Origin: Kiritimatiellota bacterium
GTDB taxonomy: Bacteria; Verrucomicrobiota; Kiritimatiellia; JAAZAB01
Assembly (NCBI GenBank): GCA_008636095.1
Contig: VSJD01000061.1
Coordinates: 1-19,714, forward strand
Length of the DNA: 19,714 nucleotides
Direction: 5' to 3'
The stretch's first letter is position 1; each line of letters begins with the position of its first letter. The notes beneath the pieces were generated by a model that made no database searches, was not told the origin of the DNA, and saw only the letters and a program-made list of their open reading frames with translations. Below, one piece after another: positions 4,422 through 19,714 of the stretch. A program made the position numbers and the translations under genes.

Positions 4422-4448
4422 TGCCGGTTCAATAGAAAGACTGACAAT

Positions 4449-4568
4449 ATGCTTGCCAAAGTGCATTCCGGCGTGGTGTGTGGTGTTGACGCCTATCCCC
4501 CTTCGCTTGAAATAGCTTCCGTCTTCGCCAAGGCTTCGCCGGACAAGTCGGGGGACAAGTGCCGTTGA
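4449..4568 (+). pseudogene. comM: comM 5' fragment A1 (residues 1-17) ending in short-repeat DNA
   Basis: It begins [17 protein letters not shown], matching the start of the comM gene at 18662. It then runs into unrelated sequence (CCCTTCGCTTG, then CGCCAAGGCTTCGCCGGACA) of the same style as the short palindromic repeats found in other comM pieces here, and stops after 39 codons. The sequence before its ATG (AATAGAAAG-CTGACAAT) resembles the sequence before fragment F at 15211. Non-functional as an AAA+ protein: no ATPase domain remains. Confidence 0.8.
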
Positions 4569-4583
4569 ACGCGTGAGGTCGTC

Positions 4584-4673
4584 ATGTTGGCGAAAGTACA
4601 CAGTGGGGCAGTCTGCGGTGTTGATGCTTACCCCGTGGAAATCGAAGTCAACACGGGCCGGGGCGGGAATTAG
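4584..4673 (+). pseudogene. comM: comM 5' fragment A2 (residues 1-27)
   Basis: A second comM start lies only 15 nt after the end of fragment A1. It reads [20 protein letters not shown] and on to NTGRG, with the same reading frame as intact comM, then leaves homology and ends in TAG after 29 codons. Its third-position bases differ from A1 and from the intact gene, so it is not a recent tandem copy of either. The remaining interval to the next gene (4674-4753) holds one copy of a 15-bp direct repeat and the ribosome-binding site of the next gene, and nothing else that I can see. Confidence 0.8.
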
Positions 4674-5783: not shown

Positions 5784-5865
5784 CCGGATTAAGGGTGGGG
5801 TTGATTTCTAATCATCGTTCAATTGATAATCTTGATGGACACGGGGGATAATTTAATAGAAGATG

Positions 5866-5905
5866 AGCCTCCTGGGAAGGCATTCATCTATAATGTTTAA
5901 TTCGG
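5866..5905 (+). repeat. cassette-junction repeat T1
   Basis: AGCCTCCTGGGAAGGCATTC then ATCTATAATGTTTAATTC. It matches the core and the first part of the right arm of the repeats at 6497, 7911, 8809 and 17621. The proposed exchange point would be after base 5872. It is 100 bases after the DUF6485 gene and 20 bases before the next gene, and with T2 it encloses a 634-bp one-gene unit. Confidence 0.7.
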
Positions 5906-5926
5906 CAACTGAATTACGAGGGCCAT

Positions 5927-6451
5927 ATGAAACAGCAACATCTGGTTCTAGTAGTAATTGCGGCAATAGCGCTAAATCCTATCTGCGGCCTCGCGCGACT
6001 AGACGAAACAGAGGCGCAATGCGAGCAACGATATGGAAAGCCGCAGAATTCACTATCTGACAAAAGCTTTCCAATCCTGTCAGGTGCTGTAAATCGAATC
6101 TATCAATATCAAGGTTGGTGCATCAGGATTGCGTTTATTGACGGCAAAGCCGTGATAATTAGCTACTCGAAGTCAGCAAAAGCGGCAGGTGGTATTACGA
6201 TTCGTAATGACGAGGTCAAGGCCATCCTCGATGCCGAAGGAAACGGGGGAGAATGGAAAGGGTCAAGGAATTTTAATCTGTTTAAACCGGGTCATCCCAA
6301 GAAATGGAGCAATACCAACGGCTCGATTGCATATTTGGTGGGCATTACAAGAGCCGTCCTGGTTGTCGAATCCCCAAAGGTGGAAGAATTAAATAAAGCG
6401 CAAGCACAGACGACGGAAGAACCGCGCAAGGAAAGCATCCCGAAATTCTGA
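5927..6451 (+). CDS. secreted protein of unknown function
   Basis: 174 aa. The N-terminus MKQQHLVLVVIAAIALNPIC followed by GLARLDE looks like a signal peptide, cleaved probably near residues 20-24, so the product should be periplasmic or exported. The mature part begins with ETEAQCEQRYGKP, which recalls a family of short exported bacterial proteins, but I cannot name it. The body is mixed alpha/beta with several Trp, Tyr and Gly residues; the tail (from about residue 150) is charged and rich in Glu, Lys and Gln. It is the only gene between repeats T1 and T2 and is richer in A+T than the genes at 1-4400. Confidence 0.65.
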   Translation: MKQQHLVLVVIAAIALNPICGLARLDETEAQCEQRYGKPQNSLSDKSFPILSGAVNRIYQYQGWCIRIAFIDGKAVIISYSKSAKAAGGITIRNDEVKAILDAEGNGGEWKGSRNFNLFKPGHPKKWSNTNGSIAYLVGITRAVLVVESPKVEELNKAQAQTTEEPRKESIPKF

Positions 6452-6471
6452 AAAGAACGAATGCCGAATCC

Positions 6472-6558
6472 CATTAGGGACATTGCATATTAAAAGATGC
6501 GCCTCCTGGGAAGGCATTCATATACAATGTTGAAATTTGTAGGGAAGTAGCGGCGTAA
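6472..6558 (+). repeat. cassette-junction repeat T2
   Basis: The core GCGCCTCCTGGGAAGGCATT (6499-6518) and the right arm (ATTCATATACAATGTTGAAA, then GTAGGGAAG) match the repeats at 7911, 8809 and 17621. The left arm, GGGACATTGCAT followed by AAAAGAT, partly matches the left arm at 8790 (GTACATAGCATGC). The proposed exchange point is after base 6506. The rest of the gap to 6691 holds no feature that I recognise. Confidence 0.7.
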
Positions 6559-6691
6559 GTCTTTGGTGTGGAGTGGAATGATATTGTGATCCTGAACGCT
6601 AACGACTGTGAACAAGTTGGAGTATTCCAAGAATCTCGGACTGACCCCTTTCCCTCCAACGATGGGCGATAGGAATAGCATAGGGTAAATG

Positions 6692-7699: not shown

Positions 7700-7918
7700 T
7701 ATTCGCCCCATTCGAGATATCATCGCGGGCCGGCTTGTTGTCCAGCCCTACCGGGTGGATGTGGCCAAAGTATTTGAAACGCATTTGATCTATGAGGAGG
7801 ATTTTGCCGATGTCAAGGGCCAGTCCTTCGACGTTGCTCAGGATGAAGCAGAACATGCCAAGCGGGCAATCGAGGTGGCGGTGGCCGGCGGGCATAATCT
7901 GCTCATGATCGGGCCGCC
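7700..7918 (+). pseudogene. comM: comM middle fragment B (about residues 165-223) ending in the P-loop
   Basis: From GATATCATCGCGGGCCGG (7715) it follows intact comM closely: [20 protein letters not shown], then KGQ, then [20 protein letters not shown] and GPP. Homology stops inside codon 223, where the Walker A GPPGTGKT of comM becomes GPPGKAF and the repeat tail takes over. Between KGQ and EHAKRA is a 27-nt in-frame insert (7824-7850) coding SFDVAQDEA; intact comM lacks it. An open frame runs from 7755 to a stop at 7970. I read the 3' end as a left attachment junction. Before 7700 (7607-7699) nothing is recognised. Confidence 0.8.
7824..7850 (+). repeat. short palindrome-type repeat inserted in comM fragment B
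   Basis: A 27-nt insert, TCCTTCGACGTTGCTCAGGA then TGAAGCA, lies between the codons for Q and E of comM KGQ-EHAK. The motif CCTTCGAC-N-GCTCAGGA recurs at 17533 (same site of another comM piece, 28 nt) and 12571 (another site). CTTCGAC and GCTCAGG-type arms are common in short interspersed repeats of uncultured bacteria. Being a multiple of three, this copy keeps the frame open. Confidence 0.75.
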
Positions 7919-8062
7919 TGGGAAGGCATTCATCTCCAGTGTTGAAATTCGGAGGGAAGCTGCTTAGTGTAAGTCGCTGTAGATGAATATTTAGGGAGTG
8001 TAGGGTTGGTCTGGTCAAGGGCTGTAATAGGGGTGGTTTGCTTGGTAATCGTTCCGGATGGC
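7911..8062 (+). repeat. cassette-junction repeat T3 (right arm, comM-left hybrid)
   Basis: GGGCCGCC of comM is joined to TGGGAAGGCATTCATCTCCA and then GTGTTGAAATTCGGAGGGAA. The right arm matches T5 (17621-17767) for about 140 bases with scattered substitutions: both contain TTAGTGTAA, GTCAA followed by GTAAT, and TTTG-GGTAAT-CCG-ATGG. The other T repeats share only the first 30-50 bases of this arm. The gap from 8063 to the next gene holds only its upstream region. Confidence 0.75.
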
Positions 8063-8132
8063 GGCTCAGCATGGAGGCTGGCGGTTGAAACGTGGCTAGC
8101 GGCCCTTGTAGTAGGAAGTCACTGGGAGAACC

Positions 8133-8684
8133 ATGATATACGTTGGCGAAGTACTTCGTTTACACAAACTCTGGCTGACTGACAATCAGAAGGGCAAGAA
8201 AGCCGACCTGACTGGAGCGGACCTTGTCAGTGCAGAGCTGACTACTGTTAATCTGCGATATGCCGTCCTACGAAATGCCAAGATGTCAGCTTCCATATTC
8301 AACTATAGTGATCTAAGCCATTCAGATTTGCATGGTGCTGACCTGGGTGCTGCCAGCCTGATTGGTGTTGACCTGACTGGTGCCAACCTGACTGGTGCCA
8401 ACCTGAGTTTCGCCACACTGACCGACGCCAACTTGAGTAACGCTAATTTGAGACATGCAAATCTCGGTGGCGTTGAAATGTTCAATGTCAACCTGAGCGG
8501 TGCTGATCTACGAGGTACCAACCTGAGAGCTTGCGACATGGGCGGGGGCAACCTAGATGGTGCCGATCTGCGAGGTGCCGACCTGGGCGATTCCGACATG
8601 ACCAGGTGTCATATTCCCAATCATAGTGGCGCCATCCTTAGCGATGACGATCCTAGAATTGCCAACCTGAAGAAGAACACATAG
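8133..8684 (+). CDS. pentapeptide-repeat protein
   Basis: 183 aa. After a short N-terminal segment (MIYVGEVLRLHKLWL), tandem pentapeptides A(D/N)LXX run from about residue 24 to 157 (ADLTG, ADLVS, VNLRY, ANLTG, ANLSF, ADLRG and so on), predicting a right-handed four-sided beta-helix of about seven coils. The tail (residues 158-183) is polar. Some family members mimic DNA and protect gyrase; others have no known role, and nothing here decides between them. GGGAGAA precedes the ATG. It is the single gene of a 900-bp unit between the junctions at 7918 and 8818. Confidence 0.9.
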   Translation: MIYVGEVLRLHKLWLTDNQKGKKADLTGADLVSAELTTVNLRYAVLRNAKMSASIFNYSDLSHSDLHGADLGAASLIGVDLTGANLTGANLSFATLTDANLSNANLRHANLGGVEMFNVNLSGADLRGTNLRACDMGGGNLDGADLRGADLGDSDMTRCHIPNHSGAILSDDDPRIANLKKNT

Positions 8685-8733
8685 ATCCTCGCTTACTTGA
8701 ACGGTAGAATGGACCATCGTACACAACACAATG

Positions 8734-8870
8734 CAGTTGTAATCGATCCACTCGGATGCAAATCCAAACCATGGTTTGAAAATTACCAAGTACATAGCAT
8801 GCAAATTAATGCGCCTCCTGGGAAGGCATTCATCTCCAGTGTTGAAATTTTGAGAGAAGTGTGTGCGTAA
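8734..8870 (+). repeat. complete cassette-junction repeat T4 (left arm, core, right arm)
   Basis: The left arm contains CAGTTG-TAATC-AT (8734), the perfect 14-bp palindrome CAAACCATGGTTTG (8765-8778) and CCAAGTACATAGCATGC (8786-8802). The same blocks stand at 9632-9695. The core GCGCCTCC|TGGGAAGGC is at 8811-8825, with the proposed exchange point after 8818. The right arm, ATTCATCTCCAGTGTTGAAA and on, matches T3. This is the only copy where both complete arms can be recognised, so it best represents the free site. Confidence 0.75.
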
Positions 8871-8956
8871 CATATTTGAATTGAATTAATTATCAGTTAA
8901 ATTGGTAGTATGCGAAGCACAATGAAAAACCCCGCACTATTTCCGGAGGAACCAAA

Positions 8957-9574
8957 ATGGATGAGATGCGTAAGACTCCCAAGCTGAGCAAGATGACTAT
9001 TGCCCTCGCTTTTGTTGGCGTGATAATGTTGGTTTGGGGTATGGTGACAATGAACCCTGCGGATAGGGACACGGCTCTCTTTGGGATGTTTGTCATGGGG
9101 TTAACTTTTCTGATAGGATTCAGTCCAGTTTTTGCTGCTTGTGCTCCCATAAAGTGTCGCGAGGGGTCTTATTTTTCGTTGATAGACACATTATTTCGCG
9201 CGGCGGGATTAATAGTCAGTGTGTTTTCTTTTCTTGTATTGTTGATTGCTATTCCGAACATACTGGGCATAATCGTTTTAGATCCGTCTAAGTACATAGT
9301 TGTTAATTCAAGTACGAAAGCTTTTATCCGATACGCAACATGGGCGGATGTTGCTCCAAGAAGCGTTTTGTATATATTCCTATTTATCATTTTTTGGATT
9401 GGGGGTGAAACTCTTCTAATTTTACTTGCAATAGGATGTTACAAGAATATGAAAGATTGTTTTAATCGCTTCAGAGGCATTGAACAATCTGTTACAGACA
9501 GGCCATATTCTTTAGCTATTAAAAAACGAGATTCAGCGATGGTTAAGTTATTAGAGGAAAAAGGTGCGAAATAG
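8957..9574 (+). CDS. four-helix membrane protein of unknown function
   Basis: 205 aa with a strong ribosome-binding site (CCGGAGGAACC) before the ATG. Hydrophobic segments lie near residues 13-32, 39-61, 78-106 and 134-162. A long loop between the third and fourth (SKYIVVNSSTKAFIRYATWA) probably faces the periplasm. The last 20 residues, LAIKKRDSAMVKLLEEKGAK, look like one half of an ankyrin repeat, possibly a truncated binding tail. No family is recognised. It is A+T-rich compared with 1-4400 and is the single gene of an 891-bp unit between the junctions at 8818 and 9709. Confidence 0.6.
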   Translation: MDEMRKTPKLSKMTIALAFVGVIMLVWGMVTMNPADRDTALFGMFVMGLTFLIGFSPVFAACAPIKCREGSYFSLIDTLFRAAGLIVSVFSFLVLLIAIPNILGIIVLDPSKYIVVNSSTKAFIRYATWADVAPRSVLYIFLFIIFWIGGETLLILLAIGCYKNMKDCFNRFRGIEQSVTDRPYSLAIKKRDSAMVKLLEEKGAK

Positions 9575-9631
9575 CATGTATGTTGATCATTCCTGGTGCA
9601 ACGTGTTTTAATTGACCGCCTTGTGACTATT

Positions 9632-9886
9632 CAGTTGGCAGTAATCTATGATTTCCAAACCACAGTTTGATCCTTGCCAGGTACATAGCATGCGACGGGA
9701 AGCGCCTCCGGGCACGGGTAAGACCATGCTGGCCAAGCGCGTGCCTTCGATCCTGCCGCTTATGTCGGTGGAAGAAGCTTTGGAGACGACTAAAATTCAC
9801 AGCATTGCCGGCGCCCTGCCGCCGCGCCAGGCCCTGGTTACCCGGTGCCCGTTCCGTTCCCCGCATCACACCGTATCCGATGCCGG
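9632..9886 (+). pseudogene. comM: repeat left arm joined to comM fragment C (residues 223 to about 281)
   Basis: The left part (9632-9709) repeats the T4 left arm, including TCCAAACCA-AGTTTGA and GTACATAGCATGC, then AGCGCCTCC. From 9710 the sequence is comM: GGGCACGGGTAAGACC, then [35 protein letters not shown] and [12 protein letters not shown], after which homology is lost near 9886. An open frame of 90 codons (9648-9920) crosses the junction and keeps an apparently complete Walker A (APPGTGKT) but no Walker B, so no ATPase can result. I read it as a right attachment junction matching the left one at 7911. Confidence 0.8.
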
Positions 9887-9984
9887 GCGGCGGAAGTGTT
9901 GTATGCGCGCTTATAAATGAACAGCGGTTGCGAAACTGGATGGCAGTGGGAGGGGGTTATCAAAAAAAAGGCAAAAAAATAGTG

Positions 9985-12095: not shown

Positions 12096-12235
12096 CCAGT
12101 TGCTTTCCCCCGTTTGCCTTATTATACTTGACCAGTTTTTCAGCTCATTTCCGCCTGCGTTCAGGGCTTCCACCTTTGCTAAAGCTTCGGTGGACAAGCT
12201 TGCGGACATGATGGAGGACAGGTTCCGGTATTTCT
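12096..12235 (+). repeat. upstream-region repeat, copy 1 (before comM fragment E1)
   Basis: CCAGTTGCTTT, TTTGCCTTATTATACTTG, GTTTTTCAGCT, CGCCTGCGTTCAGGGCT and GGACATGATGGAGGACAGG occur here in the same order as in 14311-14420. Copy 1 also contains a CTTTGCTAAAGCTTCGGTGG insert. Its end leads straight into a comM start (12246), so it may be the old comM leader. 11995-12095 shows nothing else. Confidence 0.6.
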
Positions 12236-12245
12236 GAGAGGTAAT

Positions 12246-12345
12246 ATGTTGGCCAAAGTTCATCCCCCTTCGTCCCGATACCCGCTTGAGATGCGTGATC
12301 GGGACTATGGGGGACAAGTTCCGGTGAATCACTATAAGGAAAAAT
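12246..12345 (+). pseudogene. comM: comM 5' fragment E1 (residues 1-6) followed by a short inverted repeat
   Basis: CCGGTATTTCTGAGAGGTAA followed by TATGTTGGCCAAAGTTCAT is nearly the same as the leader and start of intact comM (CCGGTATTTTTGAGAGTTAA and on, before 18662). After six codons it is cut by CCCCCTTCG and an inverted repeat TCCCGAT...ATCGGGA (about 12270-12304). The residual frame is about 33 codons. Confidence 0.7.
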
Positions 12346-12346
12346 A

Positions 12347-12665
12347 ATGTTATCTAAAGTTCATTCCGGCGCGGTTTATGGCGTAGATGCCTGCGCCGTG
12401 GAAATCGAAGCATGCCCAGCGAAGCTTTAGCGAAGTTGGGTCAACACCCACCGCCGCCAAGGCTTCCGCCTACGCGAAGGCTACGGCGGACAAGATGGTG
12501 GGCCGGGCGGGCCAGGGGCGATCCCCAGACGGTCATCGTGGGCTTGCCCGACGCGGCGTTCAAGGAGAGCCCTTCGACTGGTTCGACTCTGCTCACCACA
12601 GGTTCGCTCAGGATCTGCGACAAGGACCGGGTCAATACCGCCTCCTCAATTCCCGGCTTCGCTCG
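12347..12665 (+). pseudogene. comM: comM 5' fragment E2 (residues 1-56) broken by short repeats
   Basis: It begins [20 protein letters not shown], then is interrupted after ATCGAAG by CATGCCCAGCGAAGCTTTAG and on, again by CGCCTACGCGAAGGCTACGG, and again at 12571-12620. Between the inserts are recognisable comM pieces ([12 protein letters not shown] and RVNTASSIPG in other frames). It ends near AATTCC (codons 54-56), followed by CCCGGCTTCGCTCGGGAG. The first 170 bases after 12401 match 15265-15434 with four mismatches. Coding capacity is destroyed. Confidence 0.8.
12571..12620 (+). repeat. 50-bp short repeat inserted in comM fragment E2
   Basis: CCTTCGACTGGTTCGACTCT, then a middle part, then GGTTCGCTCAGGATCTGCGA. 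It separates GGAGAGC from CAAGGACCGGGTCAATACCG of comM. Fragment F has no insert at this same site, so it is an insertion in E2 after the two copies separated, or a precise loss in F. CCTTCGAC and GCTCAGGAT ends are shared with the inserts at 7824 and 17533. Confidence 0.7.
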
Positions 12666-12730: not shown

Positions 12731-12997
12731 GTGACACCTGAACAACGCCAAGCCTTGGAGGATATTGTACGACCTAATCTACTCAGCAACCACATCGCAC
12801 AATATGAGCATAGCCTTATATCAGATTCAAATCGGTTATCCGAAGCAATCGCAAATGCTCGAGACAGAATTAATATTATCATTTCGAATAACACCGCCCT
12901 GCTAAGTTTAGCGGCAACTGAATATGCGCGAATCTGTTTAACAAATACCATCAATACCCCTAGGTCCTTCGGGATTGGTATTCAAATACAATATTAG
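12731..12997 (+). CDS. hypothetical protein, possibly truncated
   Basis: 88 codons from a GTG. The product is mostly helical and polar (MTPEQRQALEDIV, then LSNHIAQYEHSLISDSNRLS) with a hydrophobic patch IIISNNTALLSLAATEYA. No ribosome-binding site is clear and no family is recognised. It follows directly on the broken comM piece and is A+T-rich. It may be the 3' part of a gene cut by the insertion. Confidence 0.35.
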   Translation: MTPEQRQALEDIVRPNLLSNHIAQYEHSLISDSNRLSEAIANARDRINIIISNNTALLSLAATEYARICLTNTINTPRSFGIGIQIQY

Positions 12998-13116
12998 ATT
13001 TTCGAGGGAATCTGCATAGCGTCAATCGTTGAGAAATGATGGCTGCATTTTATTATTGGGCATAGGCATAGACCATCAAAGCAAAGGAAAGTAAACATCA
13101 AAAAAGGACGTTAAAT

Positions 13117-14100
13117 ATGAAAGCGAAATCCATCAGACTCCGGACTATCTCCCTTGTATGCACCGTTTTGTTATATTTATCATCAAGTAGTCCCGCTTTT
13201 CCCTGCACTTGGTTCAGGTTTTTCAGCGACACCAAAAACCCGTTTATTGGGCGCACAATGGAGTGGCCGGGGGACCTTCAGGCCGAGATTGCGCTTTTCC
13301 CGCGCGGCCATTCATTCGGGACTTACACAACGAAATACGGATTCGTCGGCATCCATCATTTGGGCAGCCTTAGCGACGGCCTGAACGAGCACGGCTTGGC
13401 GGTAAGCGGGCTCTGGCTAAGCGAGAGCAAATACGCGGACAAATCAAAGGCTCAATATCACATCAAGGAACTCGTTTCGTTCCTGCTTGGAAATGCAAAA
13501 ACGGTGGACGAGGCTCTGAAAATCGTAGAGGCCAACCAATTCTATACATCCAAGATGGACGGCAAGATCGAAATTACCCTCCACTTTGCCATCACGGACG
13601 CCTCCGGGCGTTCCGTTGTGGTTGAGTTCATTGACGGCAAAACAAAGGTTTATGAAAACGAGGTCGGCGTCATGACGAATGAGCCTGCCTTCGACAAACA
13701 TTTGCAGATGTGGTCGGCATACAACCCCAGGAATTTCAATGAGAATACTTTTGAGGGCTTTGACTATTCGCCCGAAGGTCGCTTTGCACGCATGGCGGCC
13801 TTTAATGCGACACAAACCAAGGTGGTGACCGATGAGGCGGCGATCAATCGTGCATGGTCTATGCTGAATACCGTGGACATTCCCCAGGGCATTCTTTACT
13901 GGCGCTGGGTTAGCGACAATCCCCAGTTCACATCCTACGCTGTGGTGGTGGATATAAAGAACCGAGCTTACTACTTTCGTACTTACGATAATTACGACAT
14001 ACGCAAGGTTGATTTGAGCAAAATCGACTTTTCGTCGGTAAAGTATAGTTCTGCGACCCTTTTTGGATATGTGAATTACCAAGAATTTAAATTTAAATAA
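13117..14100 (+). CDS. exported choloylglycine hydrolase / linear amide C-N hydrolase family protein
   Basis: 327 aa with AAAAGGA before the ATG. A signal peptide (residues 1-29, ending SSPAFP) is followed at once by Cys30, the expected N-terminal nucleophile of this Ntn-hydrolase family. Supporting family motifs are GRTMEWPGD (about 45-53), SDGLNEHGLAVSGLW (about 86-100) and VMTNEPAFDKHLQMW (about 185-200). Members cleave linear amides such as bile-salt, penicillin V or N-acyl homoserine lactone amides; the substrate here is open. Export to the periplasm with cleavage right before Cys30 would create the active enzyme. It is a single gene between comM fragment E2 and the zeta-type kinase. Confidence 0.8.
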   Translation: MKAKSIRLRTISLVCTVLLYLSSSSPAFPCTWFRFFSDTKNPFIGRTMEWPGDLQAEIALFPRGHSFGTYTTKYGFVGIHHLGSLSDGLNEHGLAVSGLWLSESKYADKSKAQYHIKELVSFLLGNAKTVDEALKIVEANQFYTSKMDGKIEITLHFAITDASGRSVVVEFIDGKTKVYENEVGVMTNEPAFDKHLQMWSAYNPRNFNENTFEGFDYSPEGRFARMAAFNATQTKVVTDEAAINRAWSMLNTVDIPQGILYWRWVSDNPQFTSYAVVVDIKNRAYYFRTYDNYDIRKVDLSKIDFSSVKYSSATLFGYVNYQEFKFK

Positions 14101-14310: not shown

Positions 14311-14420
14311 CCAGGTTGCTTTACCGCATTTGCCTTGTTATACTTGCCACGTTTTTCAGCTTGTTTGCGCCTACGCCCCTTCGACTGCGTTCAGGGCTAT
14401 GGTGGACATGTCGGAGGACA
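14311..14420 (+). repeat. upstream-region repeat, copy 2 (before the zeta-type kinase)
   Basis: Same order of blocks as 12096-12235: CCAGGTTGCTTT, TTTGCCTTGTTATACTTG, GTTTTTCAGCTTGTTT, CTGCGTTCAGGGCTATGGTG and GACATGTCGGAGGACAG. It carries CCCCTTCGAC where copy 1 has none. Its end supplies the GGAGG ribosome-binding site of the kinase gene. 14101-14310 contains no supported gene. Confidence 0.6.
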
Positions 14421-14428
14421 GATCCCCT

Positions 14429-15010
14429 ATGAATCAGAAACCCATACTATATGTCGTTGCCGGTCCTAATGGCGCGGGCAAAACCACCTTTGCAAAACGG
14501 TTCTTACCGGAATATGCGCATTGCCGGAATTTTATCAATCCGGACTTGATTGCCGGTGGGCTCTCTCCGTTTGCGCCCGAGCTCGCGCGGATTGAAGCGG
14601 GGCGGATAATGCTGGCAAAGATAAGCCGAATGGCCGCCTTAAAGCGCTCATTTGCCATCGAAACAACTCTGGCCGGACGCTCCTATCTTCCAATGTTCAA
14701 GCGCTTGAAGATGCGGTCTTATTCCATGCACCTGTTTTATCTGTGGCTTCCTTCTGTAAATATGGCCATTCAGCGTGTTGCCGACCGTGTCAGACAGGGA
14801 GGGCATAACATCCCGGAATCGGATATTCGCCGGCGCTTTTCGAAAAGCCTGCCTAACCTGCTTCAGTTGTATCGCCCCGTTTTCGACTCGCTGCATTTCT
14901 TTGACAATTCCGGCAGAATTCCGCGATTGATATTTGAAGAGTGGGGCAGTAAAATTAAAATTAATGATAAAAAATTGTATGCCAGTTTGTTTCAGGAGCA
15001 GAAGTCATGA
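14429..15010 (+). CDS. zeta-toxin-like P-loop kinase
   Basis: 193 aa from the ATG at 14429 with GGAGG at 14413-14417. The frame is open further upstream but that part is repeat DNA. Walker A is GPNGAGKTTFAK (residues 12-23), followed by NPDLIAGGLSPF and ETTLAGRSYLPMF, the usual layout of the zeta / AAA_33 small kinase group. Zeta toxins phosphorylate UDP-N-acetylglucosamine; whether this protein does is inferred only from fold. Its stop overlaps the start of a 57-aa gene by 4 nt. Such pairs (P-loop kinase plus short protein) are usual on accessory DNA and probably form a toxin-antitoxin or related two-gene module. Confidence 0.8.
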   Translation: MNQKPILYVVAGPNGAGKTTFAKRFLPEYAHCRNFINPDLIAGGLSPFAPELARIEAGRIMLAKISRMAALKRSFAIETTLAGRSYLPMFKRLKMRSYSMHLFYLWLPSVNMAIQRVADRVRQGGHNIPESDIRRRFSKSLPNLLQLYRPVFDSLHFFDNSGRIPRLIFEEWGSKIKINDKKLYASLFQEQKS

Positions 15011-15180
15011 AATCAGCACCGATGAATAAAATGCAACGGACTTTTCGCGATCAAGCACTCAAGGCCATGAAAGAGGCTGTGGCGCAGGTCATTGAAGAGC
15101 ACCGTCAGCGTAATCTGCCTTTGGCATTTTGGGATAATGGAAAAGTGCGGATGGTTTCCCCTAAAGAAATTCCGAGATAG
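15007..15180 (+). CDS. 57-aa partner of the zeta-like kinase
   Basis: It starts at the ATG of an ATGA overlap with the kinase stop and ends at TAG 15180. MKSAPMNKMQRTFRDQALKA begins a basic helix; the end reads LPLAFWDNGKVRMVSPKEIPR, with a Trp-Asp-Asn-Gly turn. Similar short proteins with a hydrophobic and (V/A)xW-x-(D/N)-G-x-V ending accompany small P-loop kinases. It is probably the antitoxin or regulator of the kinase, by position and size only. Confidence 0.7.
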   Translation: MKSAPMNKMQRTFRDQALKAMKEAVAQVIEEHRQRNLPLAFWDNGKVRMVSPKEIPR

Positions 15181-15210
15181 CGCATGACTGGTAAATAGAA
15201 AGTCTAACGA

Positions 15211-15636
15211 ATGCTTGCCAAAGTCCATAGTGGGGCAGTCTACGGTGTTGACGCCTACGCCGTGGAAATCGAAGCATGCCCAGCGAAGCTTTAGCGAAGT
15301 TGGGTCAACACCCACCGCCGCCAAGGCTTCCGCCTACGCGAAGGCTACGGCGGACAAGATGGTGGGCCGGGCGGGCCAGGGGCGATCCACAGACGGTCAT
15401 CGTGGGCTTACCCGATGCGGCGGTCAAGGAGAGCAAAGACCGGGTCAATACCGCGATCCTCAATTCCCGGCTTCGCTCGGGAGCTACGCCGAGGCATACC
15501 GGGTTCGAGATGCCGAAGGAACGCCTGACGATCAACCTGGCCCCGGCGGACATCAAGAAGGAAGGCCCGATATTCGATCTGCCGATAGCGCTTGGTGTGC
15601 TGGCCACGATGGGCGATATCCCCATGGCGGCGCTTG
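15211..15636 (+). pseudogene. comM: comM 5' fragment F (residues 1-100) with short-repeat inserts
   Basis: It begins [20 protein letters not shown]. After ATCGAAG it has the same two inserts as E2 (15275-15375). Then follow [14 protein letters not shown], a frame change at [19 protein letters not shown], an insert CCCGGCTTCGCTCGGGAGCT with CGCCGAGGCATACC, and [20 protein letters not shown] to GDIPMAAL. Homology ends at 15636 in codon 100. The amidohydrolase gene then begins about 100 bases later, and comM homology resumes at 17431 at residue 167. So F and G may be two ends of one comM copy that lost codons 101-166. Confidence 0.85.
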
Positions 15637-17378: not shown

Positions 17379-17430
17379 TCCGCGCCAAGCAGTACTTATC
17401 AAGGCATTGGCCGGGTGGGGGAAGGGCGCC

Positions 17431-17628
17431 GTTGCCGGACGGATCAACCTTCAGCCCTGTCGGGTAAACTTGGAAAAAGTCTTTGAATCGCACCTGGTTT
17501 ACGAGGAAGATTTTGCCGACGTCAAGGGCCAGCCCTTCGACGTTGCTCAGGATGAAACAGGAACATGCCAAGCGGGCGATCGAGGTGGCCGTGGCCGGCG
17601 GCCACAACCTTTTAATGATCGGGCCGCC
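17431..17628 (+). pseudogene. comM: comM middle fragment G (residues 167-223) ending in the P-loop
   Basis: [20 protein letters not shown], then [14 protein letters not shown] matches residues 167-210 of intact comM but with many replacements, so it is older or came from another lineage than fragment B. A 28-nt insert at 17533-17560 (CCCTTCGACGTTGCTCAGGA, TGAAACAG) shifts the frame. It sits at the same site as the 27-nt insert of B. Downstream, [20 protein letters not shown] then GPP reappears in the other frame and ends at the same base of codon 223 as B, where the repeat arm begins. Confidence 0.8.
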
Positions 17629-17767
17629 TGGGAAGGCATTCATCTGCAATGTTGAATTTTGGAGGGAAGCTGTTTAGTGTAATGCGTTGTCGTTAAGTAT
17701 TATAAGAATGCTGAATTGATCTAGTCAATGGCGGTAATGAGATGTTTTGGGTAATGTCCGTCATGGT
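17621..17767 (+). repeat. cassette-junction repeat T5 (comM-left hybrid)
   Basis: GGGCCGCC|TGGGAAGGCATT, then CATCTGCAATGTTGAATTTT, GGAGGGAAGCTGTTTAGTGT and on. It is homologous to T3 along about 140 bases. The exchange point would be after 17628. The MNT/HEPN gene pair follows, but no repeat-left/comM-right junction is found after it; the intact comM start comes instead. Confidence 0.75.
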
Positions 17768-17882: not shown

Positions 17883-17900
17883 TTAATTTTGGAGTCAGCC

Positions 17901-18215
17901 ATGACCGCACAAACTGCCATACGCCAGATGACCAATCGCATCGCCAAACGGTTCAAGCCGGACAAAATCGTGTTGTTCGGTTCCCATGCCCGGGGAACCG
18001 CTGGGCCGGACAGCGATGTGGACCTGCTCGTCATTATGCCTGTGAGCGGATCTAAACGAAAAACCCAGGTTGCAATCCGTTGTGCGGTTCACGATATCCC
18101 GGTGGCGAAAGACATCGTTGTGGCGACTCCTCAGGAAGCGGAACAGCATCGGCAAATCATTGGCACCTTGATCCAGCCGGCTTTGAAAGAGGGACGGATC
18201 CTTTATGCCCAGTGA
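17901..18215 (+). CDS. mntA: MntA-like minimal nucleotidyltransferase (antitoxin)
   Basis: 104 aa from the ATG at 17901 with GGAG at 17891-17894. The family signature is KIVLFGSHARGTAGPDSDVD with LLV after it: GSxxRG and the DxD catalytic pair. Known MntA proteins AMPylate and so neutralise the HEPN toxin encoded next to them. The next gene overlaps by 11 nt and is a HEPN protein, so the pair is a standard type VII-like toxin-antitoxin module. The symbol is by family analogy. Confidence 0.85.
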   Translation: MTAQTAIRQMTNRIAKRFKPDKIVLFGSHARGTAGPDSDVDLLVIMPVSGSKRKTQVAIRCAVHDIPVAKDIVVATPQEAEQHRQIIGTLIQPALKEGRILYAQ

Positions 18216-18633
18216 TAGCCAAAAGACAGCCATCTTACGTTCGTGGGTGGGAAAGGCCGACGACGATTTCAAGATGGCCAATCATGCCTTCACGATGGGC
18301 GCAGACTGTCCATTTACCAGCTTGTGTTTTCACGTTCAGCAATGTGTGGAAAAATATATCAAAACACTTCTGGCCCTCCATGAAGTCGATTTTCCCATGA
18401 CGTACGACATCGGGCGGCTGATTCAGTTGCTTCCTGTCGATATACGCCTTCCACTCGATGTGTCCACACAAGAACTTCTCGCCAATTACGCTGTGGCTGC
18501 TCGCTATCCTGGTGACGATGAGCCGATATCTATGGCAGAGGCTCGGCGGGCTTTATCCGTAATGCGCAAAGTTCGCAAAGTAGTGCGATCCATCTTGCCG
18601 GATGTGGTTTTGCGGAAAACCAAACGGCTTTAG
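18205..18633 (+). CDS. HEPN-domain protein, probable toxin partner of MntA
   Basis: 142 aa starting inside the end of the nucleotidyltransferase gene. Helical throughout, with [20 protein letters not shown] (about residues 42-61) and [20 protein letters not shown] (about 91-110) matching the HEPN core. The ribonuclease motif R-x4-6-H of classical HepT toxins is not clearly present: there is an Arg in ARYPGDDEP but no His at the right distance. So it may belong to the non-nuclease COG2250-like group, or act differently. It ends 28 bases before the intact comM start. Confidence 0.8.
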
Positions 18634-18661: not shown

Positions 18662-19714
18662 ATGCTGGCCAAAGTTCATTCCGGTGCGGTTTATGGTGTA
18701 GATGCGTACCCTGTCGAAATCGAAGTCAACACGGGTAGGGGGGACCCGCAGACGGTCATCGTCGGCCTGCCCGATGCGGCAGTCAAGGAAAGCAAGGACC
18801 GGGTCAATACCGCCATCCTCAATTCCGGCTTCGAGATGCCGAAAGAGCGGTTGACGATCAACCTGGCCCCGGCGGACATCAAGAAGGAAGGCCCGATCTT
18901 CGATCTGCCCATTGCCATTGGCGTGCTGGCCACGATGGGCGATATCCCCATGGAGGCGCTTGACCAATTCTCCCTGGTGGGCGAACTGGCCTTGAGCGGG
19001 GAAGTGCGCCGGGCACGTGGTGTGCTTCCCATCACAATGGCCATGCGCGCCAAGAAGCGTCCGGCCATCCTGGTGCCTTACGATAACGCCGATGAAGCTG
19101 CGGTGGTGGAAGGCATTGATGTCTATCCCGTCCGCAACCTGCGCGAGGCGGCGGATATCATCGCGGGCCGGCTTGCCGTCAAACCCTACTGTGTGGACGT
19201 GGCCAAGGTGTTTGAAACGCATTTGATCTATGAAGAGGATTTCGCCGATGTCAAGGGCCAGGAACATGCCAAGCGGGCAATCGAGGTGGCCGTGGCCGGC
19301 GGGCATAATCTGCTCATGATCGGGCCGCCGGGTACCGGCAAGACCATGCTGGCCAAGCGTGTGCCTTCGATCCTGCCGCTCATGTCGTTGGAAGAAGCTT
19401 TGGAGACGACCAAAATTCACAGTATCGCCGGCGCCCTGCCGCCGCGCCAGGCCCTGGTTACCAGGAGACCGTTCCGTTCCCCGCATCATACCGTCTCCGA
19501 CGCTGGCCTGCTGGGCGGCGGTGCGCATCCCATGCCGGGCGAAGTCAGCCTGGCGCATCGCGGCGTGCTGTTCATGGACGAACTGCCCGAGTTCCACCGA
19601 AACGTTCTGGAAGTCCTGCGTCAGCCGCTTGAAGATGGAACGGTGACCATTTCACGGGCTTCGGCCAGCCTGACGTTCCCCTGTGACTTCATGCTGGTGG
19701 CGGCGATGAATCCT
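18662..19714 (+). CDS. comM: ComM/YifB Mg-chelatase-like AAA+ helicase, 3' end cut by the window
   Basis: 351 codons are present of an expected 500 or so; no stop or frameshift occurs. [20 protein letters not shown] opens an N-terminal fold of the Lon-protease S5-like (ChlI) type to about residue 165; then come [20 protein letters not shown], Walker A GPPGTGKT (221-228), the family segment [17 protein letters not shown], Walker [12 protein letters not shown] and [15 protein letters not shown]. ComM is a hexameric helicase that promotes branch migration during natural transformation in Gram-negative bacteria. Its leader (CCGGTATTTTTGAGAGTTAA) is shared with fragment E1. Five broken starts and three internal pieces of this gene lie in the 14 kb to its left. 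Confidence 0.9.

Follow-up and report, generated by a model that had tools for sequence, protein, structure and literature searches.

Walker A codons of comM as a probable attachment site of large serine recombinases, with apparent integrase-less relics in a Kiritimatiellota contig

The stretch of DNA analysed here (the window) is the entire contig C211, 19,714 bases, of G000, a 3.8-Mb, 87% complete metagenome-assembled genome of a Kiritimatiellota bacterium. It ends within comM, the gene of a widely conserved competence helicase, and carries further comM pieces, T-type repeat ends and cargo genes upstream of this start. We consider it probable that the comM codons for the Walker A motif (P-loop) are the attB site of large serine recombinases (LSRs) in this phylum and that elements of this kind have left integrase-less relics in the window. 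Site-specific insertion at these codons, the central claim of the original prediction, was supported by LSR genes beside P-loop-broken comM in four other families and by the left end of one of them, in genome G090, which resembles the window end T6 and an end in genome G008. The junctions and the units between them are:

5846..5900, + strand: T1, attP-like junction; T likeness ends ~29 nt past the crossover.
6480..6560, + strand: T2, attP-like junction by T comparison.
7716..7918 (blast 7716-7921), + strand: comM relic B, amino acids (aa) ~165-223, stopping at the P-loop CC, with an insertion inside at ~7824-7850.
7919..8049, + strand: left end of unit c (T3), with ~130 nt in common with the T5 copy (7743-8049 versus 17452-17755, 80.5%).
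8133..8684, + strand: cargo of unit c, a pentapeptide-repeat protein (Pfam PF00805, 1.9e-53).
8763..8870, + strand: T4, attP-like junction of units c and d by sequence comparison, with the crossover after CC, between 8818 and 8819.
8957..9574, + strand: cargo of unit d, a 205-aa protein without a Pfam family, present in G000 alone among 97 genomes searched.
9654..9709, + strand: right end of unit d by T comparison, with the last letters GCGCCTCC.
9710..9897 (blast 9704-9886), + strand: comM relic C, aa 223/224 to ~282, the C-part side of the broken comM.
12963..13041 (match ~12975-13031), + strand: T6, a diverged T-type end of the G008 subtype by T comparison, preceding the gene at 13117-14100.
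17629..17755, + strand: T5 end and leader, by T comparison.
18662..19714, + strand: start of intact comM (351 aa), cut by the contig end; Pfam Mg_chelatase 8.1e-76 and ChlI 7.4e-43; attB-type P-loop site at 19322-19338.

Four 17-mers make up a four-way junction at the P-loop. Intact comM reads GGGCCGCCGGGTACCGG (19322-19338), with the junction form GGGCCGCC then GGG; T4 reads GCGCCTCCTGGGAAGGC (8811-8827), with GCGCCTCC then TGGG; B reads GGGCCGCCTGGGAAGGC (7911-7927), joining GGGCCGCC to TGGG; and C reads GCGCCTCCGGGCACGGG (9702-9718), joining GCGCCTCC to GGGC. All four had been claimed at these positions and match to the base, and spacing and open reading frames (ORFs) agree with the predicted units of 900 bp (B to T4) and 891 bp (T4 to C), one gene each. 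B follows comM to nt 668 and then enters repeat T, and C consists of a T4-type right arm followed by comM from nt 669, so that no target duplication or loss accompanies the pair. These two attL/attR-type junctions have the short core CCNCC in common. B has the comM letter to the left of CC and the element letter to its right, and C shows the opposite; the crossover therefore likely lies at the second CC of GGNCCNCC. Serine integrases exchange strands at a central dinucleotide. T4 and C have similar right arms for ~60 nt (59-64 nt), at 75-76% identity and with an alignment score of 30 against a maximum of 11 among 300 shuffles; the likeness of these arms had thus been foreseen correctly, and the predicted length of ~75 bases proved too long. 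The arms of T1 and T2 are unlike those of T4 and C except for the last 11 nt. A coding reading of T was rejected after by-eye comparison of the copies.

Relatives of the proposed integrase were sought across the class and the phylum. Among 345 class genomes searched with the LSR of G090, three gave matches at E<=1e-20 (G090, G122 and G008), and when 387 genomes of the phylum were searched with an alignment of two LSR rows, 24 matched at E<=1e-15. We checked 33 LSR loci for comM, 31 of them distinct (two duplicates), in flanks of ~1.5 kb that were shorter at contig ends; the place in G362:C54 lay outside this check. comM was present in the flanks of 4 of the 31 distinct loci (G090, G122, G503 and G547), and in all four it breaks at the P-loop codons, with the LSR gene starting 38 to 106 nt from the broken piece. 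At the remaining 27 places, these short flanks gave no comM match at E<0.01. The four genomes represent four families, all other than that of the window. In G090, the comM N-part (L103) ends with GGCCCTCC and continues with ACGCTTTCATTCAAATCATATATTCGATTTT, and on another contig a 698-aa LSR ORF (Pfam Resolvase, Recombinase and Zn_ribbon_recom) starts 86 nt from a comM C-part whose beginning reads GCTCCCCC before the junction and AGGCACGGG after it. The LSR of G122, with the same three Pfam families, starts 49 nt from a C-part beginning ACCCCGCC then GGGCACGGG, and an LSR-family ORF of G503 starts 106 nt from one beginning AAGCCTCC then GGGAACCGG. The N-part relic of L103 (G090:C228) lies beside an intact comM of opposite orientation.

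The left end of G090 resembles those of G008 (score 15) and T6 (score 12), scores that none of 1,000 shuffles reached, and the G008 and T6 ends align in turn with T1-T5. Dyad symmetry around CC, as would be expected of attP half-sites, exceeds that of shuffles only for T1 (p 0.0035) and for the joined G090 halves (p 0.019). The G008 LSR itself (L120 7243-9975) runs into a contig end and adjoins three small ORFs; no comM was found near it in the 10 kb fetched. Among phages, the G090 LSR had distant relatives alone (28 records, 0 covering 80% of the query), and in viral_contigs 24 stretches fitted the pattern for LSR relatives, none of which was confirmed.

The G547 locus presents a second arrangement, in the order of a gene, a comM N-half, the LSR gene (now two ORFs) and a complete comM of 509 aa. 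The N-half is an open frame of 235 aa that ends at the P-loop (IGPPGT), and the LSR gene follows 38 nt further on. The relic and new 5' halves are identical at 520 of 681 positions; one of them therefore came from elsewhere. This arrangement looks self-restoring. Window T5 and G008:C59 show a similar order of N-part relic, T end, cargo and start of comM, in which cargo takes the position of the LSR, and by extension most comM 5' relics of the window may have been left by such insertions.

Taken as a mechanism, the exchange would be conservative and fall at the CC named above. B (comM to left end) would then be attL-like and C (right end to comM) attR-like, and T4, T2 and T1 (right end to left end) would be attP-like junctions of units set head to tail, with units c and d holding one gene apiece. 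A second form of the element would bring its own comM 5' half, leaving the old N-half upstream as a relic while a complete comM is remade downstream; repeated rounds would give the succession gene, comM 5' relic, gene, comM 5' relic, intact comM. The window units would have been moved by an LSR, either in trans or before the LSR was lost, and they may be mobile at present. It is plausible that integrase-less single-gene units moved as circles.

Beyond these junctions, the window has six T-type ends in total, at 5846, 6480, 7892, 8792 and 17602 plus the diverged one at ~12975. When the window was searched by blast with the comM start, B, C and six more comM stretches (ten blast pieces) came up before the intact start, all on the + strand. 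From 4446 onward a comM piece or T delimits most genes or short gene groups. The remaining features are:

4449..4665 (blast 4446-4498 and 4584-4663), + strand: two comM 5' relics, 4449-4499 (aa 1-17) and 4584-4665 (aa 1-28).
5927..6451, + strand: cargo gene flanked by T1 and T2; the gene and T2 recur together upstream of comM in G004 (5901-6565, 88.7%).
12219..12661 (blast 12219-12266 and 12356-12661), + strand: comM 5' relics with leader, 12219-12266 and 12347-12661 (aa 1-58, with an inserted repeat).
15211..15636, + strand: comM 5' relic, aa 1-101, with inserted repeats, found by blast.
17428..17628 (blast 17468-17631), + strand: comM relic, aa ~168-223, stopping at the P-loop; its left part is closest to the comM of genus g5.
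17889..18633, + strand: cargo adjoining intact comM, a nucleotidyltransferase (17889-18215) and a HEPN protein (18205-18633), by Pfam.

From the left, Pfam assigns HATPase, STAS and histidine kinase, then DUF2284, DUF6485, an unknown, a cation-efflux protein, pentapeptide repeats and two unknowns, and continues with channel/solute-binding, choloylglycine-hydrolase-family, Zeta-toxin-family, amidohydrolase, nucleotidyltransferase and HEPN genes. The nucleotidyltransferase of the last pair matches PADLOC PDC-S09 models. Repeats of dispersed appearance lie inside comM relics, in the window at 7824-7850, 12410-12514 and 15274-15378 and in L058 at 25-900.

The comM pieces have a history of their own. 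Mismatches of 13 window pieces against intact comM fall at codon position 3 in 111 of 151 cases, and the pieces therefore diverged largely in working genes before becoming relics. Piece 17428-17531 is identical to the comM of genus g5 at 87 of 101 positions and to that of G000 at 67 of 98, and in L059 a genus-g1-like relic (aa 1-78) is followed by a genus-g5-like one. By eye, comM starts are preceded by more than one kind of leader.

The original prediction had proposed a search for T in its own and related genomes. In G000, T was confined to C211, which gave no copy outside the window; a real one-mismatch copy was found in G004 (97 genomes searched at <=2 mismatches), and G008 has a T-type end. 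Four two-mismatch matches among the 97 genomes gained no support on comparison beyond the word. The exact 17-base T pattern occurred in 19 stretches of genome_contigs, with little match beyond the word; by our own calculation, chance alone would give ~30 on both strands of 257 billion bases. No stretch of viral_contigs had the pattern. L025 matched T over 22 nt at two places. Rfam gave two window matches at E<=0.5, both below the gathering score and neither at T.

Several observations weigh against LSR insertion at the P-loop codons as the source of the window. B and T5 carry a common insertion at comM nt 600 that is lacking from the intact comMs compared, and a matching remnant is present at this position in the G008 comM piece; the comM-to-T junctions of B, T5 and the G008 copy are probably, judging from these letters, one event by descent. 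The window alone therefore shows one insertion event rather than three and is no proof of site-specificity. The majority of window comM relic ends lie elsewhere than at the P-loop (~aa 7, 17, 28, 58, 101 and 282) and would need later deletions or another cause. Likewise, comM relics were examined in eight genomes outside family f1 and in a ninth, G003, which belongs to f1, and the other comM pieces in these nine genomes mostly break away from the P-loop. Along the intact comM of G000, kinship does not change abruptly from the 5' to the 3' part or at the P-loop. In G547, comM-like letters extend ~6 nt beyond CC, so the crossover is not fixed to the base, and dyad symmetry around CC does not exceed that of shuffles in T2, T4, G004-T2 or comM. 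The G090 left end scores 5-7 against T1-T5, G004-T2 and G547, within shuffles, so that its link to the window runs via T6 and G008. Finally, no LSR was detected in G000 or on C211 at E<=1e-20 and 1e-15, and the orphan recombinase that had been suggested did not appear as an LSR in this 87% complete genome; PF00239 has a single place in G000, a 224-aa resolvase ORF.

A rival account does without a dedicated recombinase: the locus would have been assembled while DNA was taken up, by recombination in comM that was homologous at one end and illegitimate at the other, and the P-loop junctions would reflect one chance exchange between T and comM at the 12-bp look-alike GNGCCNCC(T)GGG. Homology-facilitated illegitimate recombination is a known process. 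The many comM 5' relics with scattered ends, the chimaeric relic pair in L059, the relics and cargo common to different genera and the descent of B and T5 from a single junction all fit this account. Set against it are the four other families in which LSR genes adjoin a comM that is interrupted at the P-loop codons, the precision of an insertion in which nothing is lost, and the two ends that the tandem units have in common (T copies and T4/C arms). With the G090 end and the LSR loci, accretion by homologous recombination is therefore no longer preferred, and we regard it as unlikely.

An integron-type array, with the T repeats as attC-like sites of the tyrosine integrase IntI, is highly improbable. 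Short repeats do separate single genes here, the genus does have true integron integrases (G001:C80, L097, and G003:C34, L098, above the TIGR02249 cut-off), and T5 and the G008 copy contain words of the GTTRRRY type (GTTGAAT and GTTAGAT). attC sites are palindromic, with paired RYYYAAC/GTTRRRY. Yet the repeats beside the L097 and L098 integrases look, by eye, long, palindromic and unlike T, B and C switch after CC rather than between G and TT, and C211 has no IntI match. A scan for RYYYAAC/GTTRRRY pairs found none in the window, although it was insensitive, as L097 likewise gave no pair and L098 a single place. L098 has four copies of a 224-nt repeat, next to small ORFs.

An origin from Tsy or Tn6022, which insert in comM by means of TnsF, is equally improbable. 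Tsy, flanked by comM 5' and 3' parts and circularising with a 135-bp end1 and a 20-39-bp end2, does resemble the series B, unit, C (PMC10293859), but the window junction lies at comM nt 668/669 and Walker B starts at nt 907, an integron-integrase model that is also sensitive to other tyrosine recombinases has no match on C211, and the P-loop relatives carry serine recombinases. A Pfam scan of 20 ORFs, with no TnsF model among those searched, found no TnsF, YRec or Tn7 gene.

AbaR islands sit at comM, and LSRs at Mg-chelatase-type genes are known; one-gene, integrase-less tandem units with self-restoration of comM would be new. A literature search of titles and abstract openings found no description of this comM arrangement. 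The original prediction knew of no cassettes at the comM Walker A codons, and this stands as far as that search reaches; LSR targeting of Mg-chelatase-type genes had, however, already been published, as main-text passages of PMC10083194 state. There, Durrant et al. (2022) give 12.4% of predicted site-specific integrases as targeting magnesium chelatase/ATP-dependent protease homologues, which we equate with ComM-like proteins. Those elements share with the window, as we read it, a serine integrase, a target annotated as comM-like and insertion within the coding sequence; these main-text passages give no codons, integrase-less one-gene tandem units or carried comM 5' half. sr1WO of phage WO inserts in a Wolbachia magnesium chelatase gene, likewise an LSR insertion with target-gene parts on both sides, but there a whole prophage is involved (PMC9203015). 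Faure et al. (2023) place the target of Tsy and Tn6022 inside the Walker B region of comM. These elements resemble the window, as we read it, in having pieces of comM to either side, cargo genes and, for Tsy, a circular intermediate; they differ in the tyrosine recombinase or Tn7 machinery with TnsF and in the Walker B site (PMC10293859). The ssrA islands of Dehalococcoides and SCC elements also have serine recombinases at a conserved single-copy gene and carry cargo, but with another target, paired recombinases and large islands (PMC3146451). Integron gene cassettes resemble the window in their tandem one-gene units with a site at each junction; the window differs in that its contig gave no IntI match, attC-type palindromes were not seen and the crossover falls at CC.

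The analysis points to the codons at which serine integrases of a bacterial phylum probably enter the gene of a widely conserved competence helicase, and it supplies natural attB, attP-like, attL and attR sequences together with candidate integrases. It could also describe a route by which single genes (nucleotidyltransferase/HEPN, pentapeptide-repeat and small unknowns) gather at comM while the gene is kept whole. A bolder proposal, which we hold tentatively and think less likely to be right than wrong, is that serine integrases have a system parallel to the integron: cassettes of one gene, with no integrase but with common attP ends, would enter the comM Walker A codons via an integrase acting in trans, one form carrying the comM 5' half that remakes the competence gene. 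If this is true, cassettes could pile up at one codon pair with ComM kept, and movement of the units in trans, if it occurs, would make them a cassette system separate from tyrosine-integrase integrons.

In relatives of the family, truncated comM lies upstream of the comM start in G002 and G008 (two contigs), and in G009 comM itself is in two pieces; none was found in the fetched upstream flanks of G001, G003, G004, G005 and G007, and the comM search gave no match in G006. G008:C59 has the order comM piece, T-type end, three ORFs and intact comM, its T-type end matching a profile of T1-T5 at E 1.6e-5. Modules are held in common with the window: gene 5927 with T2 (G004), DUF2284 directly upstream of comM (G003), a Zeta-type gene with a comM 5' relic (G002, G008) and nucleotidyltransferase/HEPN before comM (G002). 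The succession of a Zeta-toxin-family gene and a similar comM 5' relic recurs at window 14330-15636, L059 and L061, in three genomes of two genera, and a 2.2-kb gene-plus-comM stretch is 82% identical across two genera (L055/L058 upstream of comM; G004, G008). A Y1-type transposase ORF lies directly upstream of the G008 comM relic; a Y1-transposase origin was discarded, with four Y1 places in G000 and none on C211.

comM also matches 32 phage records, two of which were inspected. In an Acetoanaerobium phage record (L123 3001-3483), a comM piece to aa 354 overlaps the integrase gene. G003 has comM C-parts downstream of comM, among them one from ~aa 350 that lies 12 kb downstream of the intact gene (L105, G003:C28, 3291-3839), and together with the phage piece this perhaps marks a second integrase site in comM.

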